DNA of 49,917 nt, from assembly GCA_944324285.1 (NCBI GenBank), contig CALUVR010000017.1, forward strand, positions 1 to 49,917, written 5' to 3'. Below, in pieces: positions 2,304 to 10,412 of the stretch. Every line of letters begins with the position of its first letter. The stretch's first letter is position 1. A program made the position numbers and the translations under genes. Origin of the DNA: Candidatus Gastranaerophilales bacterium (GTDB lineage Bacteria; Cyanobacteriota; Vampirovibrionia; Gastranaerophilales; Gastranaerophilaceae). Below the pieces are notes generated by a model. That model did no database searches. It saw only the letters and a program-made list of their open reading frames with translations, and was not told the DNA's origin.

Positions 2304-3233
2304 CTAACTAATCTGTTGTGCGCCAGATACGACTTCTACGATTTCCTGTGTAATTGCAGCCTGTCTTGATTTGTTGAATTCAATAGATAATGTATTAATC
2401 ATTTTTTCAGCGTTAGTTGTAGCGGCGGACATAGCGGTCATTCTTGATGCAAGTTCGCTTGCCTGAGCCTCCAGTACCGCTTGATAAATGATATTGGTAA
2501 TATACATCGGTACAACTTTTTGTAATACATTATGCATATCAGGTTCAAATTCCATTATCGGATCAATTACGTTATCGTGTAATTTTGCTTCCTTTTCATC
2601 TGGCTGTTGAAGAGGAAGAACCTCCCATGCTTCAACAAAATAACTCATCATGTTCTTAAATCTTGTTGTTATAATCTCAATTTTGTCAATTTTTTTATTG
2701 ACAAAATATTCAGCCAAATCCTCAACAACAAGTGAACATGTTGTCCCGGACGGATTATTTGCAACCTCAAGATAAGTTTTGGCAATCTCACAATCTAAGT
2801 TTTCGACTTTTCTTTTCAGTGCCGAAATACCTTTTTGACCTATAATAAAGAGAATTACATGAACTCCTTTTGCGTTATAATCCTGAATTGCCTTGAGAGT
2901 TTTTCTTACAACGTTAGCATTATAAGCTCCTGCAAGCCCTTTGTTTGATGTAATAACAAGCATTCCTGCCGTTTTTAATTCTCTTGTCTGCAGCAATTCC
3001 GGATAATTGTCAACGGCAGATTTTATTTTTAGCGTAGTTGCACTGTATGCGCCGACAGAATTTAACAGTTTCTGAAACATTCCGTTCAATTCCGCTGTAA
3101 ATGGACGTGACGCTTTTACTGTACTTTCCGCTTTTTTTACTTTTGCCGCTGCAACCATTTTCATTGCACGGGTTATTTTCTTTGTACTTTCAACACTTTT
3201 TATTCTGTTTTTTATGTCTTTAAGATTTGCCAT
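2304..3233 (-). CDS. atpG: ATP synthase gamma subunit
   Basis: Central rotor shaft of F1, coupling c-ring rotation to catalysis in the alpha/beta hexamer. The 309-residue product opens with the classic gamma N-terminus (NLKDIKNRIKSVESTKKITRAMKMVAAAK) split here as NLKDIKNRIKSVESTKKIT followed by RAMKMVAAAK. It ends with the conserved C-terminal helix around ASRMTAMSAATTNAEKMI. It is slightly longer than the usual 285-290 aa; the extra residues seem to lie in the first third (about 45-75), not in the place of the regulatory insertion of cyanobacterial gamma. That placement is inferred without an alignment. It is last in the operon, 17 nt after the small zinc-finger gene, and is followed by a terminator. 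In cyanobacterial nomenclature this gene is called atpC. Confidence 0.96.
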   Translation of the reverse strand: MANLKDIKNRIKSVESTKKITRAMKMVAAAKVKKAESTVKASRPFTAELNGMFQKLLNSVGAYSATTLKIKSAVDNYPELLQTRELKTAGMLVITSNKGLAGAYNANVVRKTLKAIQDYNAKGVHVILFIIGQKGISALKRKVENLDCEIAKTYLEVANNPSGTTCSLVVEDLAEYFVNKKIDKIEIITTRFKNMMSYFVEAWEVLPLQQPDEKEAKLHDNVIDPIMEFEPDMHNVLQKVVPMYITNIIYQAVLEAQASELASRMTAMSAATTNAEKMINTLSIEFNKSRQAAITQEIVEVVSGAQQIS

Positions 3234-3250: not shown

Positions 3251-3460
3251 TTAGTCAAAAATAAGTAATAAAATCAAAGCTACCAGTACTATATACAAAA
3301 ATGTTTTCCACAATTTTGTACGATTGAGTTTACCGATACAGCTTTTATCATTACATGTAATAACTGCATTCTGATTATTCATGCATTCAAGGCATAAGCC
3401 TTTTCCGCATACAGTACATATTCCAAATGCATCTCTATCGTGGTGATTGTAACATTTCAT
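3251..3460 (-). CDS. Small zinc-finger (B-box-like) membrane protein inside the atp operon
   Basis: A 69-residue protein between the alpha and gamma subunit genes, with 14 nt and 17 nt gaps and a good ribosome site (GGAG before ATG 3460). Residues 3-41 are rich in paired Cys/His: C3-x2-H6, C15-x2-C18, C23-x2-C26 and C36-x4-C41, resembling a B-box-type zinc finger. Residues about 50-68 are a strongly hydrophobic helix, so it is probably tail-anchored with the finger in the cytoplasm. It is not a standard ATP synthase subunit. Co-transcription suggests a role in assembly or regulation of the complex, but that is inference; it could also be an unrelated insert tolerated in the operon. Confidence 0.8.
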   Translation of the reverse strand: MKCYNHHDRDAFGICTVCGKGLCLECMNNQNAVITCNDKSCIGKLNRTKLWKTFLYIVLVALILLLIFD

Positions 3461-3474
3461 GATAAATTCTCCTT

Positions 3475-4986
3475 TTAGAAGGTTTTCTTAAATGCTTCAA
3501 GCTGTTCTTTCAATAATTTTTTATCTTCATCAGAAAGTGCACTGCCCGCATTCAGGTTATCTACGAGTTCTTTCAAATTTGAATTCAAATGAACGAACCA
3601 GTCCTTTTTGAATTTTGCAATATCAGTATTCGGAACATCGTCAAGAATACCTTCATTTGCCGCAAATAGTATTGAAACCTGTTCGGCAACGCTAAGCGGA
3701 GCATATTGAGGCTGTTTTAATACCTCCGTCAATTTTTCACCGCGGAGAAGCTGATTTTTAGTAGCCTGATCCAAGTCTGATGCGAATTGAGCGAAGGCTT
3801 CCAATTCTCTGAATTGAGCCAAATCAAGTCTTAATTTACCTGCTACTTGTTTGATAGCTTTAGTCTGGGCTGCGCCGCCTACACGTGATACAGAAATACC
3901 TGCGTTGATTGCCGGTCTTACGCCTGAGTTGAACAAGTTTGTTTCCAGGAATATCTGTCCGTCAGTAATTGAAATTACGTTTGTCGGAATATATGCTGAA
4001 ACGTCGCCTGCCTGTGTTTCAATAATAGGAAGTGCAGTAATACTCCCGCCTCCGAGGTTGTCATTTAATTTTACCGCACGTTCAAGAAGTCTTGAGTGCA
4101 GGTAGAATACATCGCCAGGATAAGCTTCACGTCCAGGTGGTCTTTTCAAAAGCAAACTCATTGCACGGTATGCCTGAGCGTGTTTACTCAAATCATCATA
4201 TACAATTAAGACATCTTTACCCTGTTCCATAAATTCTTCACCAACAGCGACACCCGCAAACGGTGCAATATACTGTAACGGTGCAGATTCGTTCGCCGTA
4301 GCTGAAACTATGATTGAATAATCCATAGCTCCGTGTTCTTCAAGAGTTTTGGCAATTTGCGCAACTGTTGAGGCTTTTTGTCCGATTGCAACATATATAC
4401 AAATTACGTTTTTACCTTTCTGGTTAATGATTGTATCAACAGCAATTGCAGTTTTACCGGTTTGTCTGTCACCGATAATTAACTCACGCTGACCTCTTCC
4501 GATAGGAGTCAGTGCATCAATTGAAGTTAACCCTGTTTGCAGAGGCTGATGTACAGATTTTCTGGTAACAATACCGGGAGCAACTCTTTCAATAGGTCTT
4601 GTTTTTGTATATTCGTAGTCGCCCTTGCCGTCAATTGCCTTACCAGTCGGGTCAATAATTCTTCCGATTAATCCGTCGCCAACAGGAACAGATGCAATTC
4701 TTCCGGTTGTTCTGACTGTCATTCCCTCTTTAATCTGGGTGTATTCACCGAGAATTACAACACCAACATTATCTTCATCAAGGTTCAGAGTAATACCAAG
4801 CGTATCTTTGCCGTCATCAAATACAACAAGTTCACTCGCCATAACGTTTCTTAAACCATAAATTCTTGCAATACCGTCACCGATTTCGATTACCGTACCG
4901 GTATTTGAAATTTCTGTTGTTGATTCATAATTTTCAATTTTGCTTTTAATAATTGAACTTATTTCATCGGGTTTTATCAGTACCAT
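3475..4986 (-). CDS. atpA: ATP synthase alpha subunit
   Basis: Non-catalytic nucleotide-binding subunit of F1, alternating with beta in the hexamer. The 503 residues match the family length. The Walker A motif [11 protein letters not shown] is present, as is the conserved stretch [20 protein letters not shown], and SISDGQIFLE-type sequence appears as [11 protein letters not shown]. The N-terminal segment (about 1-90) is the beta-barrel domain. The start ATG 4986 has AGAGG six bases upstream. The gene lies 15 nt after delta. The catalytic beta gene (atpD) and epsilon gene are not in the window, as in cyanobacteria where they form a separate operon. Confidence 0.98.
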
Positions 4987-5001: not shown

Positions 5002-5559
5002 TTACCTTAACATCAAATCTTTTTTTAATTTAGCAAGCCTGTTTTTGATACTCATATCAATAACATCATCATCAATTTTGATTACAAGACCTGCTATAAT
5101 ATCGTTATCTAATTCCCAATCCGGCTGAACTGTTTTGTTTAGTTTATTCTCAAGTTTTTGAACAACCTGTTGTTTTTCTTCTTCGGATAATTCTATCGCC
5201 GAAACAACCGTTACCGGCTGAATATTGTAGATATCATTTAATTTTTCTATATATGCTCTATAAATTTGAGAAAATTCACCAAATCTTTTCTTTTCAATTA
5301 AAATTTTTAGAAAATCAAGCATTGTATTACCGATTTCATTTTTGAAAATTTCTTCAACAATACTGATTTTCGTTTCGTAAGGAATAGTCGGATTATTTAA
5401 TATTTCTTTTAATTCCGGCGACATATTTAGAATCTGGCGGATATTTTCAAAATCTCTGCTTATATCTTCAAATGTCGACTGCTTATCATTCACGATGCCT
5501 ATTAATGCGTTCGCGTAATTCTTTGCGGAAATGGAAATATGTTCTGTTGAATTCTTCAT
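5002..5559 (-). CDS. atpH: ATP synthase delta subunit (OSCP)
   Basis: Peripheral-stalk protein that fixes the b/b' stalk to the top of F1. The 185-residue product has the usual two-part layout: an N-terminal helical bundle (about 8-110, with SAKNYANALIGIV) and a C-terminal domain with the family signature near VSAIELSEEEKQQV and the basic tail MSIKNRLAKLKKDL. The gene begins three nucleotides after the b stop, so translation is probably coupled. No clear independent ribosome site is seen. Confidence 0.93.
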   Translation of the reverse strand: MKNSTEHISISAKNYANALIGIVNDKQSTFEDISRDFENIRQILNMSPELKEILNNPTIPYETKISIVEEIFKNEIGNTMLDFLKILIEKKRFGEFSQIYRAYIEKLNDIYNIQPVTVVSAIELSEEEKQQVVQKLENKLNKTVQPDWELDNDIIAGLVIKIDDDVIDMSIKNRLAKLKKDLMLR

Positions 5560-5562
5560 AGC

Positions 5563-6072
5563 TTACAACTGTATCCTGTCTAATTCTTGTATGCTTTCAC
5601 CAATATATTTATCATGCAAATCAGGTCTGTTTTTAAGCGTGTTAATTATATGGTTTTTAGCAATAGCAACTGCCGCCGCTGCTGCTTTTTCTGTAAGTTT
5701 AGCAGATAAGCTTTTTTCTTCGGTGGCTATAGTTTTATCAACGCTGGAGTGAATTATTTCAATACGTTTTTCAGTATCTTCAAGAATGTTGTCAGAAATA
5801 GTTTTTGCAGTGTTATCCGCCAAATCCATCTGGGCTTTTATGTCGCTTTCCAGATTTTTAACGGAATCTTTTGCCTTTGATAATTTTTCTCCGGCAAGTT
5901 CTTTTGATTTTTTAACGTTTTCAATCGCGTTAATTATATCCTGCTGTAATTTTCCGATAAAGTTGGAAACATTGATTTTTTTGAATAAAAACCAGAATAT
6001 TGCCACCAGTAATACAAAGTTAAATGTATTACTTCTGACTATTATATCCCATATTTCTGCAAATTCTTTCAT
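5563..6072 (-). CDS. atpF: ATP synthase b subunit
   Basis: Membrane-anchored stalk subunit linking Fo to F1. The 169-residue product has one N-terminal hydrophobic helix (about 13-30, NTFNFVLLVAIFWFLFKKI) and then a long charged, Ala/Lys/Glu-rich helix, as expected. The gene starts one nucleotide after the b' stop and ends three before delta. Its sequence differs clearly from the adjacent b' gene, so this is a heterodimeric b/b' stalk and not a recent duplication. That arrangement is typical of cyanobacteria, chloroplasts and some other bacteria. Confidence 0.93.
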   Translation of the reverse strand: MKEFAEIWDIIVRSNTFNFVLLVAIFWFLFKKINVSNFIGKLQQDIINAIENVKKSKELAGEKLSKAKDSVKNLESDIKAQMDLADNTAKTISDNILEDTEKRIEIIHSSVDKTIATEEKSLSAKLTEKAAAAAVAIAKNHIINTLKNRPDLHDKYIGESIQELDRIQL

Positions 6073-6073
6073 T

Positions 6074-6541
6074 CTAACTGATTACCTTATTTATGACTTC
6101 ACTGTTTACATCGTTAATAGGAGTATATTCACCGAGAATTTTCTGCGAAATATTTTCAGCAAGCTCTTTGATGTTGCCTTTGAGTGCTTCTTTTGTCTGT
6201 TCAGCCTGAGAATAAAGTTCATTTTTTGCTGCCAGAATATTTTCACTGCTGAGTTTTTTTGCTTCATCTGTACGCTTTTGGGCATCATCTTTGGCAATTG
6301 TAACTTTGTCATTAATAAGCTTTTTAGCATCGTCGTGAGCTTTGTTCAGCTTAAATTCTCTGTCTGCGGTAATTCTGTCGGCTTCATCAGACATATTTCG
6401 TGCAACTTTTGTAGTTTCGTCAATAAACCCCTGTCTTTCGGATATGATATTACCCAGAGGTTTATAGAATATCATATTCATAATAAAGGTGAATATGAGG
6501 AAACTAATCATTGAAACTAAAAATGTTGCATTAAATTCCAT
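6074..6541 (-). CDS. atpF2: ATP synthase b' subunit
   Basis: Second stalk subunit. The 155-residue product has an N-terminal membrane helix (about 5-27, TFLVSMISFLIFTFIMNMI) followed by the b/b' hallmark YKPLGNIISERQGFIDE and a long coiled-coil helix rich in Ala, Lys and Glu. It lies directly between c and b with one-nucleotide gaps on both sides, matching the order c-b'-b of cyanobacterial atp operons (where it is named atpG). The presence of separate b and b' genes is one of the best lineage clues in the window. Confidence 0.92.
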   Translation of the reverse strand: MEFNATFLVSMISFLIFTFIMNMIFYKPLGNIISERQGFIDETTKVARNMSDEADRITADREFKLNKAHDDAKKLINDKVTIAKDDAQKRTDEAKKLSSENILAAKNELYSQAEQTKEALKGNIKELAENISQKILGEYTPINDVNSEVINKVIS

Positions 6542-6542
6542 A

Positions 6543-6785
6543 TTACATAAGTCCTATCAATTTAGCAGCTACAACAAGTGCGTACAAAGTACAAGCTTCT
6601 GATAACGCAGCACCCAAAAGAAAGAAACCAAATGCTTTACCTGCGATTTCAGGTTGTCTTGAGATTGCATCCATAAGACCTTTTGTTGCAATACCGATAC
6701 CGAGTCCGGCACCGATTGCACCAAAACCGATTGCGATACCGCCGCCTAACTTAGCAAGTTCCATAGTTGTGTTTGTGTCGATCAT
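6543..6785 (-). CDS. atpE: ATP synthase c subunit (proteolipid), proton type
   Basis: Forms the membrane rotor ring. The 80-residue hairpin has two hydrophobic helices, a GxGxGxG packing motif in helix 1 (G25-A-G-L-G-I-G31), the polar loop R43-Q-P-E and the ion-carrying carboxylate E63 in helix 2. Aligned by RQPE to sodium-binding c subunits (Ilyobacter/Propionigenium), the sodium-ligand Gln is replaced by I30, and the Ser/Thr after the Glu by A64. The local pattern E-A-x-T-x-Y is that of proton-binding rings. AAGGAG precedes ATG 6785. The gene follows atpB by 42 nt. Confidence 0.96.
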   Translation of the reverse strand: MIDTNTTMELAKLGGGIAIGFGAIGAGLGIGIATKGLMDAISRQPEIAGKAFGFFLLGAALSEACTLYALVVAAKLIGLM

Positions 6786-6827
6786 AATTTTCTCCTTATT
6801 TTAATTGTAGTCTTTGTAGTTATTTAA

Positions 6828-7526
6828 TTAATGCTCATCTCCGGTTGCTGCGGAAACATAGGCTATTGTCAGCATCATAAATACCGTAGCCTGAATAAAT
6901 GCTACAAGAATTTCAAATAGCATAACCGGCAGCGGGAGCAGATATGCAAATAAACCAAGTGCCACAGATACAAGAATTTCACCTGCAAGAATATTTGCAA
7001 AAAGACGGATTGCCAAACTTAAAGGTCTTGTTATCATTTCAATAAGTTCTACAAGCGTCATTATGACTCCTGTAAAAGATAATTCGTGAAATAAAAACTT
7101 AAATCCTTTAGCTTTAAATCCCATAAATACGTAATATACCAGAACAATAATTGCCATGGCAGCCGTTAGGTTCAGGTCGTTGGTAGGGGAAGCCAGTTCC
7201 CCTTGTTTAAGATGGATTAATCTTAAAGGAAGCTGCCCCATTAAGTTTGCCGTCAAAATAAACAAAAATAATGATGCAACAAGCGGTACATGATGTCTGT
7301 TTTTATTCGGAATCATTGTATCAAGAGTTCCCCAGAAGAACTGCATAACGGATTCACATACAGCTTGAAGTTTTGTCGGAACCATTGTGAGTTTTCTGGT
7401 AGCAATAAGTGCAAAAATTATAACAACAGCCATTGCAAACCACATGGTAAATATGGTATCAAGATTAAAACTCATTGCATGCCCTGCAATTACCGTGTTA
7501 TATATCCAGTGACCTGTTTCACTCAT
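6828..7526 (-). CDS. atpB: ATP synthase a subunit
   Basis: Stator channel of Fo. The 232-residue hydrophobic protein (about five to six membrane helices) carries the family signature RPLSLAIRLFANILAGE, including the essential Arg in AIRLFAN, and the C-terminal segment AFIQATVFMMLTIAYVSAA. It is the first gene of the operon. ATG 7526 has GAGGGG upstream. No atpI-like gene precedes it; the divergent neighbour is birA. Confidence 0.96.
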   Translation of the reverse strand: MSETGHWIYNTVIAGHAMSFNLDTIFTMWFAMAVVIIFALIATRKLTMVPTKLQAVCESVMQFFWGTLDTMIPNKNRHHVPLVASLFLFILTANLMGQLPLRLIHLKQGELASPTNDLNLTAAMAIIVLVYYVFMGFKAKGFKFLFHELSFTGVIMTLVELIEMITRPLSLAIRLFANILAGEILVSVALGLFAYLLPLPVMLFEILVAFIQATVFMMLTIAYVSAATGDEH

Positions 7527-7632: not shown

Positions 7633-8352
7633 ATGAGAGAAGTTTATTTAAAAAAAATAAATTCGACAAACATATACGGGAAAGAGCATCTGGCTGAATT
7701 GGATGACAAAACCATCATATATGCTGACCGCCAAACCTCAGGTCACGGCAGACTTTCTAGAAGCTGGATTGATTTGGGCGGAGATAATTTGTTTTTGTCT
7801 TTTATCTTAAAACCTTCTGTTAGTTTTAAAGAGCTTTATTCCAACCTATCGCAGTATCTTTCGGTTATTTTATGTAAACTGCTTGAAAAATATAATGTCA
7901 TGCCTGAAATAAAATGGCCTAATGATGTACTTGTTAACGGAGGAAAAATTGCCGGCATATTGGCGGAAACCGTTATGAAAGGAAATGATTTTAAAGGAAT
8001 TGTCCTAGGGATAGGTGTTAATCTGAATGCACAAAAGAAAGATTTACATCTGATAGCTGATAAAAAAGTTACAGCTTTAAATATTGAAACTGAACGTCCT
8101 GTTGATGGAGCAGCTTTTAGAAAAGAATTATGCTCATTGTTTTTTGAAAATTATGATAAATTTTTGGAGGAAGGTTTTCCTTATATTGAGAATTATTATT
8201 CCTCGCATGCCTGTTTTTTGAATAAAGAAATATGTGTAAAAGTTTTTAATAAAGAAGTCAAAGGAGTTGCAAAATGTCTTACTAAAAACGGAGAACTTTT
8301 GCTCTTTGACGGGGAAAAAGATTTGATAATTAATATGGGAGATATATTATGA
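7633..8352 (+). CDS. birA: Biotin--[biotin carboxyl carrier] protein ligase
   Basis: Attaches biotin to the conserved Lys of biotin-carrier domains via biotinyl-AMP. The 239-residue protein begins directly with the catalytic domain and has no N-terminal DNA-binding domain, so it is a monofunctional ligase and not a BirA repressor. Family motifs: SGHGRLSRSW (biotin/ATP loop, usually GRGRxGRxW), LFLSFILKP, KWPNDVLVNGGKIAGILAE with the catalytic Lys, and a small C-terminal SH3-like domain. ATG 7633 has GGGGA upstream. Its stop overlaps the start of oadG (ATGA), so it heads the decarboxylase operon. The likely substrate is the biotin domain of OadA two genes downstream. Confidence 0.93.
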   Translation: MREVYLKKINSTNIYGKEHLAELDDKTIIYADRQTSGHGRLSRSWIDLGGDNLFLSFILKPSVSFKELYSNLSQYLSVILCKLLEKYNVMPEIKWPNDVLVNGGKIAGILAETVMKGNDFKGIVLGIGVNLNAQKKDLHLIADKKVTALNIETERPVDGAAFRKELCSLFFENYDKFLEEGFPYIENYYSSHACFLNKEICVKVFNKEVKGVAKCLTKNGELLLFDGEKDLIINMGDIL

Positions 8353-8591
8353 GTGAATTTTTAATGCATTTAAAGGAAGGGCTTGTCCTCTTGGCTATAG
8401 GTATGGGGGTTGTATTTTCATTCCTTTTTATAATGGTTCTTGCGATGAATGCCATGTCAATATTTATAAGATGGCTTAATAAATTTTTCCCGGAAGAAAT
8501 TGAAGTTGTAGAAAAAAAAGGCTATAAGAAAAATATTTCGGAAGATGAGGCGATTGCTGTTGCGATAGCGGTTGCAAAGGCTCAAGGATAA
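8349..8591 (+). CDS. oadG: Oxaloacetate decarboxylase gamma-like subunit
   Basis: An 80-residue single-span membrane protein. The helix (about 11-33) carries GMGVVFSFLFIMVLAMNAMS, the pattern of the OadG family, followed by a charged tail (EEIEVVEKKGYKK) and an Ala/Val-rich C-terminus. In this enzyme family gamma tethers the soluble alpha subunit to the membrane beta subunit. It overlaps birA by four bases and precedes oadA by 33 nt. The identification relies on pattern and context because the family is short and divergent. Confidence 0.82.
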   Translation: MSEFLMHLKEGLVLLAIGMGVVFSFLFIMVLAMNAMSIFIRWLNKFFPEEIEVVEKKGYKKNISEDEAIAVAIAVAKAQG

Positions 8592-8624
8592 TTTTGAAAT
8601 TAATTGTTTGAAAGGATATAAATT

Positions 8625-10412
8625 ATGGGAAAGAAACTGATTAAAGTAATGGATACCTCTTTTAGAGATGGATTTCAGTCTGTTTACGGCGCGAGAGTTT
8701 TTGTGGATGATTTTCTTCCTGCTCTTCAATCTGCAGTAAATGCGGGGATTAATCATTTTGAAGTTGCAGGGGGCGCTAGATTTCAATCTCCTATTTTCTA
8801 CTGCAGAGAAAATGCATTTGAAACAATGGATAAGATAAGAGCTGCTGTCGGACCGGATGTCAATTTGCAGTCCCTTGCCAGAGGTGTTAATGTTGTAGGA
8901 CTGGATTCCCAACCGAGAGATATTATAAATCTTCACGCAAAATTGTTTAAAAAGCATGGTGTGACGACTGTCAGAAACTTTGACGCCTTGAATGATGTTA
9001 ATAATTTGATTTACTCAGGTCAATGCATACGCGATAACGGCTTACGGCATGAAGTAACCATAACTATGATGGAGCTTCCGATTGGATGTGAAGGCGCTCA
9101 TGATGTAGCTTTTTACGAAAAAGTTTTAAGAAATATTCTTGATGCTGGAGTACCGTTTGACAGTTTAGCATTTAAAGATGCCTCGGGAACTTCTAATCCG
9201 CATAAGGTGTATGAAACAATTAAAAGAACAAGAGAAATCTTAGGTAATGATGTTCATATAAGATTTCATTCACACGAAACTGCCGGCACAGGGCTTGCTG
9301 CTTACCTTGCGGCACTTGATGGCGGCGCTGACGGTATTGATTTATCAATGAAACCTGTATCTGGCGGAACTGCTCAGCCTGACATTGTTTCTATGTGGCA
9401 TGCTGTTAAGGGTACTGATTACGATTTGGGTATTAATATTGAAAAAATTCTGGAAACAGAAGAAATATTTAAAGAATGTATGAAAGATTACTTCCTTCCG
9501 CCGGAAGCCTTAGCTGTTAATCCAATGATTATTCAGTCCCCGCTTCCGGGTGGCGCTTTGACTGCAAATACTCAGATGCTCCGCGATAACAACTTAATGG
9601 ATAAATTCCCAGAAGTTGTTGCTGCAATGAAAGAGGTTGTTATGAAAGGAGGTTTCGGAACATCTGTTACTCCTGTATCGCAGTTCTATTTCCAGCAGGC
9701 ATTTAATAATGTAATGTTCGGGTCGTGGAAAAAAATTGCAGAAGGCTACGGGAAAATGGTTCTCGGATATTTCGGTAAAACGCCTTGCGAACCTGATGCC
9801 GAGGTTGTCAGAATTGCATCTGAACAGCTAAATCTTAAACCGACAACAGAACTTGTTGTTGATATTAATGACAAAGATGATTCTAAAGGTATTAAAGCCG
9901 CAATAAAGCGTCTTGAAGATGCCGGATTGCCTGTTAATGATGAAAATATCTTTATTTCTGCTGCATGCAAAGAAAAAGGTATTTTATTCCTTGAAGGTAA
10001 AGGAACAATTGGTGTCAGAAAATGTGAAAAAGGTGAAGCGGAACCAAAATCGGATGCTTCAAACGGTTACACGGTAACTGTTAACGGTAAAAAATACGCT
10101 GTTGCAATTGAAGGTAAAAAAGCTACAGTTAACGGAAAACTCTATGATATAGATGTTAAAGCCGGCATTGAAGCTCATACGCATGAAACAAGTGGAGAGG
10201 CTGCTCCTGTCAAGGCGGCACTTCCGGGGAATGTGTTGAAGGTTCTCGTTTCATCAGGCGACAGTATAGTAGAAGGCGACGTAATTGCCGTTATTGAAGC
10301 TATGAAAATGGAAACGGAAATTAAATCTCCTCTGTCAGGTGTCGTAAAGTCCGTTGAAATTGAAGCGGGAGATAAGGTAAAAACAGGCGATGTGCTTGTT
10401 ACGGTCGGCTAG
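8625..10412 (+). CDS. oadA: Oxaloacetate decarboxylase alpha subunit (biotin carboxyltransferase)
   Basis: Transfers the carboxyl group of oxaloacetate to biotin, giving pyruvate; OadB then decarboxylates the carboxybiotin and pumps sodium. The 595 residues comprise a TIM-barrel carboxyltransferase of the HMGL/PYC type (about 5-270: DTSFRDGFQS, RFHSHETAG metal-binding His pair, and VSGGTAQPD), a conserved PYC/OADA middle domain (to about 460), a linker, and a biotinyl domain at the C-terminus with the EAMKMET biotin site. It could in principle be a pyruvate carboxylase B subunit, but the flanking oadG and oadB and the absence of a biotin carboxylase gene favour the decarboxylase. AAAGGA precedes ATG 8625. 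Confidence 0.95.
   Translation: MGKKLIKVMDTSFRDGFQSVYGARVFVDDFLPALQSAVNAGINHFEVAGGARFQSPIFYCRENAFETMDKIRAAVGPDVNLQSLARGVNVVGLDSQPRDIINLHAKLFKKHGVTTVRNFDALNDVNNLIYSGQCIRDNGLRHEVTITMMELPIGCEGAHDVAFYEKVLRNILDAGVPFDSLAFKDASGTSNPHKVYETIKRTREILGNDVHIRFHSHETAGTGLAAYLAALDGGADGIDLSMKPVSGGTAQPDIVSMWHAVKGTDYDLGINIEKILETEEIFKECMKDYFLPPEALAVNPMIIQSPLPGGALTANTQMLRDNNLMDKFPEVVAAMKEVVMKGGFGTSVTPVSQFYFQQAFNNVMFGSWKKIAEGYGKMVLGYFGKTPCEPDAEVVRIASEQLNLKPTTELVVDINDKDDSKGIKAAIKRLEDAGLPVNDENIFISAACKEKGILFLEGKGTIGVRKCEKGEAEPKSDASNGYTVTVNGKKYAVAIEGKKATVNGKLYDIDVKAGIEAHTHETSGEAAPVKAALPGNVLKVLVSSGDSIVEGDVIAVIEAMKMETEIKSPLSGVVKSVEIEAGDKVKTGDVLVTVG

Follow-up and report, generated by a model that had tools for sequence, protein, structure and literature searches.

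The DNA analysed here, a stretch of 49,917 nucleotides from a Candidatus Gastranaerophilales genome (the window), carries on its minus strand an atp operon with the gene order a-c-b-b-delta-alpha-X-gamma, in which X stands for a short open reading frame (3251..3460) predicted to specify a 69-residue membrane-anchored B-box-like zinc-finger protein. Directly upstream of X lies atpA, coding for F1 alpha (3475..4986; Pfam PF00006, 1.5e-83), and directly downstream atpG, coding for F1 gamma (2304..3233; PF00231, 8.2e-86), and these Pfam matches bear out a preliminary description, made from the sequence alone, that had placed the gene between alpha and gamma. Further upstream, again by Pfam, are atpB (a), atpE (c), two genes for b-type subunits and atpH (delta) (5002..7526), the beta and epsilon genes being absent from the stretch; cyanobacterial atp operons have the same layout, without beta and epsilon. 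X is single-copy in its own genome and begins with ATG, its 69 codons giving the product MKCYNHHDRDAFGICTVCGKGLCLECMNNQNAVITCNDKSCIGKLNRTKLWKTFLYIVLVALILLLIFD. The tight spacing and dedicated ribosome site noted earlier are likewise evident: 14 nt separate X from the atpA stop and 17 nt from the atpG start, and an AGGAG ribosome-binding site (3469..3473, minus strand, read from 3473 to 3469) precedes it, similar purine-rich sites being present ahead of X in relatives.

Two parts can be discerned in the product. Residues 1-41 (3338..3460, minus strand) make up a putative B-box-like zinc-binding domain with the ligands C3, H6, C15, C18, C23, C26, C36 and C41, which are all four of the Cys/His pairs (C3/H6, C15/C18, C23/C26, C36/C41) singled out in the preliminary description; this set of ligands points to zinc binding. 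Residues 50-68 (3257..3313, minus strand) form a hydrophobic segment (mean Kyte-Doolittle 2.58) that stops one residue short of the C-terminus and is predicted to be a single membrane helix, again as first described. The AlphaFold model, of moderate confidence (pLDDT 77.8), has a helix at residues 39-68, with the last 20 residues at about 90 and the first ten at 55. Ahead of the membrane segment, residues 37-50 contain four K/R and one D/E, and under the positive-inside rule this basic stretch implies that the finger should be cytosolic. A fold search of the PDB with the model returned only generic zinc-finger shapes (best E at least 1, Z at most 4.1), namely ribosomal zinc proteins, RING, LIM and FYVE, and searching PDB sequences with the profile of the family returned nothing meaningful.

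No Fo or F1 subunit and no atp accessory subunit, PF03899 included, was matched by X in the Pfam search, so that such an identity was rejected, in agreement with what had been claimed at the outset. By profile comparison, the domain is homologous to that of membrane-anchored prokaryotic B-box proteins: hhalign of the X profile with B-box/TM proteins of the same phylum gave E-values of 6.4e-15 and 5.5e-9, which are optimistic as single-pair values, with the ligands in register. Searches with the family profile also pick up longer membrane proteins from the order and the phylum, in which a start of the form C-x2-H-x8-C-x2-C-x4-C-x2-C is joined to TM2 or to another multi-helix region. X alone scores a weak 14.0 bits against PF00643 (zf-B_box), under the cut-off of 24.1, and two of the homologues that its profile picks up exceed it, at 24.3 and 24.4 bits. 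The canonical B-box ligand motif is given as CC/HCCCCHH (PMC4506424). The first three pairs of X follow the prokaryotic B-box pattern C-x2-[CH]-x7-9-C-x2-C-x4-C-x2-C, and the last pair, HH in the canonical B-box, is Cys-Cys in X (C-x4/5-C), as is also the case for the phylum's own B-box/TM proteins (CxxC). Proteins combining a B-box with TM2 or with 4TM resemble X in being membrane proteins whose N-terminus carries CxxH-x8-CxxC-x4-CxxC, then C..C, whereas X is much smaller (69 residues, one helix) and resides in an atp operon. On the strength of the profile match, the class of the domain is one already known, if poorly understood, and as far as the domain goes the earlier suggestion of a possibly undescribed regulator does not hold. 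A further match is to DUF2180 (PF09947), a family for which we know of no function: X of the window scores 24.5 bits over residues 1-31 (cut-off 22.2), and 24 of 24 aligned X members match at E<=1, the match being confined to the finger, with one 117-residue form at 16.2, under the cut-off. A literature search turned up no paper about X or DUF2180, nor any describing a gene located between atpA and atpG.

The reading frame recurs under purifying selection at 52 distinct loci, across which codons 1-26 have a pS of 0.82 and a pN of 0.087 (ratio 0.10), the synonymous sites being near saturation. The recurrence together with the low pN/pS argues that X is no chance frame, and that its finger is conserved as protein rather than as RNA or DNA; an RNA element beneath the conserved N-terminus is ruled out by the near-saturated synonymous sites. 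C3-x2-H6-x8-C15-x2-C18-x4-C23-x2-C26 is invariant across the 52 loci. The start MKC[YF]NHHDRDAF is near-frozen, and the spacing of the last ligand pair varies between C-x4-C and C-x5-C, with C-x3-C in two and the last Cys missing in one (L014). The membrane part is loosely constrained: pN/pS is 0.08 in codons 1-26 versus 0.66-0.73 in the remainder of the 69-residue forms, and 0.05 versus 0.24-0.32 in the 117-residue forms. Among relatives the length ranges from 68 to 124 residues and one or two membrane helices are predicted, two in about half of them. A variant start in genus g13, MKCYYHHDRDAF, is common to sisters with short (L048, L202) and long (L049, L050) membrane parts, which, taken with the contrasting constraint, suggests that the finger is the working part and the helix looks like a tether.

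The arrangement of the ligands is illuminated by three diverged paralogues in two genomes, one in G118 beside the end of a flhA-like gene (L205:2280-2639, plus strand) and a tandem pair in G423, in the vicinity of an adenylate-kinase-like gene (L206:1958-2323 and 2326-2700, plus strand). In all three, C3, H6, C23 and C26 are preserved, whereas positions 15, 18, 36 and 41 no longer carry a ligand. This joint loss of pairs 2 and 4 matches a cross-brace, with pairs 1+3 and 2+4 each holding one zinc, and not a LIM-like pairing of 1+2 and 3+4; a two-zinc cross-brace thus fits the finger of X. The near-invariance of all eight ligands might also be taken as a sign that X is a zinc or redox sensor, through which oxidation or zinc loss would switch ATP synthase, for example by blocking ATP hydrolysis upon exposure to oxygen. 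Cys/His sets like this one usually serve a structural purpose, however, the atp-unlinked paralogues persist without site 2 and X is patchy among organisms of similar lifestyles, all of which makes a sensor very improbable. The lifestyle itself would suit such a device, as the hosts are inferred to live by obligately anaerobic fermentation and to run ATP synthase with limited membrane energization (PMC3787301).

When 383 genomes of the family were searched with the X profile, 52 matched, from 11 of the 41 genera. Judged by coordinates, X stands directly upstream of atpG and on the same strand in 49 of the 52; the exceptions are G118 and G423, with their diverged paralogues, and G158, whose weak match (E 8.5e-4) falls within a long murD-like frame and was taken as probably spurious. 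Similarly, X lies between atpA and atpG in all 34 genome_contigs loci found by protein patterns, a count that overlaps with that of the 52 genomes, many of these contigs coming from the same genomes. Its distance from atpA is 9-32 nt in most loci, and the loci related to X come from Gastranaerophilales/Melainabacteria MAGs, the carriers being non-photosynthetic gut bacteria related to cyanobacteria. The conserved operon place proposed in the preliminary description therefore stands almost wherever X occurs, but the accompanying expectation of presence across close relatives does not: X is lacking in 3 of the 12 testable genomes of the same genus (G002, G003 and G009, with atpA-atpG junctions of 9-10 nt; G007 was left out), and most Gastranaerophilaceae genomes are without it. 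A survey in which the junctions were picked via atpG rather than via X found it absent from other families and classes. X is thus encoded within the atp operon and co-directional with it, as an accessory factor might be, but the operon is often found without it. The evidence for the gene itself, for its position and for purifying selection can be regarded as solid.

In a tree of the alpha subunit, the X-bearing rows are all confined to a single region of the family. Over the full tree X has changed state at least 13 times (6 when counting starred branches alone), and within the clade at least 12 times. The distances of X and alpha are correlated (Mantel r 0.51, with 0 of 999 permutations as high). 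The simplest reading is a single early insertion followed by many losses: X would have entered the atpA-atpG junction once, in an ancestor shared by some of the Gastranaerophilaceae, and would then have been inherited with the operon, its membrane part being rebuilt and the gene lost many times; repeated re-insertion at the same junction is also conceivable. An origin from a mobile element was considered and rejected, with no match in phages, two partial and weak matches in plasmids and none confirmed in viral contigs. These observations bear on the proposal that X is a passenger, selfish or nearly neutral, for instance a toxin-like small membrane protein, spreading or decaying at a permissive site. 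Its patchy distribution, the permissive junction and the fast-changing membrane part would all be expected of such an element; the vertical signal, the want of convincing phage, plasmid or viral matches, the absence of recognisable remnants of X from X-minus atpA-atpG junctions and the strong purifying selection on the finger at 52 loci, which in itself weakens the proposal, render it improbable.

The atpA-atpG junction is in fact unusually tolerant of inserts: 17 of 111 such junctions exceed 150 nt (6 of them flagged with X, in a deduplicated set), versus 2 of 109 at delta-atpA. Several of its other occupants can be named. In G421 (genus g24), an ORF6N-domain gene (PF10543, 7.8e-37; L209:1501-2022) sits between X and atpG, and G035 of the same genus (L094 junction) is without X and apparently retains an ORF6N fragment; besides L209, long X-atpG spacers occur at L024, L030, L031, L032 and L034. 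Junctions without X (L113, L098, L117, L124, L134 and L138) hold genes unrelated to it, among them a ParD-like antitoxin with its neighbour, a glycosyltransferase-like fragment, a pilin-like protein and multi-helix membrane proteins. Similar non-coding DNA (CCCTCACCCG.ATTTCTAAA ... CCCTCTC), which looks like a dispersed repeat, is shared by the L066 and L075 junctions, and the delta-atpA junction of L066 is long too.

This permissiveness feeds the main rival explanation, nearly as likely as the ATP synthase helper favoured below, in which X would be a general membrane B-box protein serving folding, quality control or proteolysis, and the atp slot a permissive site with strong constitutive expression, the target being something other than ATP synthase. 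Apart from the unrelated guests and the patchy presence of X, it draws on the finding of fingers related to X beside flhA, adk and der, by which the B-box domain is evidently not tied to ATP synthase. It also draws on the distribution of B-box/4TM proteins, present in 11 of 22 genomes from other families of the order and in 0 of 60 Gastranaerophilaceae. With such proteins missing, X could be the remaining B-box of the family, though their absence fits either view. The protein found in those other families is a 178-residue B-box/multi-helix membrane protein, carried by G060, G061, G063, G065, G066, G070, G073, G074, G076, G077 and G081. Weighing against a general role, although X has been gained or lost at least 12 times, a copy with all eight ligands intact was found nowhere but the atp operon in the family genomes searched, and X is kept across many genera whereas the other guests are sporadic.

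One paper links prokaryotic B-boxes to membrane proteins, reporting roles in their folding, stability and proteolysis (PMC4506424). These roles, together with the fixed operon place and translation alongside the F1 subunits, point to an assembly or stability helper as the likeliest role, and our leading, if tentative, reading is that X is a lineage-specific, membrane-tethered B-box accessory protein co-made with ATP synthase. The cytosolic two-zinc cross-brace finger (residues 1-41) would be anchored in the membrane through one C-terminal helix, or a pair of them; translated together with the F1 subunits, X would dock by its finger on an assembly intermediate or a newly made subunit, of F1 (alpha/gamma) or of Fo, and aid the assembly or stability of this client at the membrane, as an optional accessory rather than a core subunit. 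By comparison with the gene, its place and its selection, the tie to ATP synthase is less well supported, owing to the frequent loss of X, the openness of the junction to unrelated genes and the lack of any alpha residue tracking X, none having co-varied with it in a test of low power (5 independent pairs on well-supported branches).

The usual small helper of ATP synthase is AtpI. No atpI scored over the cut-off in 59 relatives, and the genomes without X also lack it. The assembly factors AtpI/UncI and Atp1/CGL160 are, like X, small membrane proteins, and X differs from AtpI in having no PF03899 match. AtpTheta is not known to carry zinc ligands and is encoded elsewhere, unlike X. In bacteria, genes for the AtpI/UncI and Atp1/CGL160 proteins accompany those of ATP synthase (PMC4383579, PMC9806626), and AtpTheta, like X a small ATP-synthase-linked protein, is a regulator of the cyanobacterial enzyme in the wider phylum (PMC9241938). 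A more specific version, that X is a dispensable assembly or stability factor, i.e., a B-box with a defined bacterial enzyme client, possibly replacing the missing AtpI, is somewhat unlikely. If true, it would give a core enzyme a clade-specific helper, and this in an order for which no AtpI was found. We know of no clear client for any prokaryotic membrane B-box protein; X would be one whose gene is tied to one well-understood complex, and sister genomes with and without it offer a natural contrast that makes the binding partner of a bacterial B-box directly testable. As for the coupling ion of the enzyme, the c subunit of the window operon (6543-6785, minus strand) looks proton-coupled, the Gln and Ser/Thr of the sodium-binding motif seeming by eye to be absent; an oxaloacetate decarboxylase gamma gene and a gene for a biotin-carrying carboxylase lie near the operon (8349-10412).
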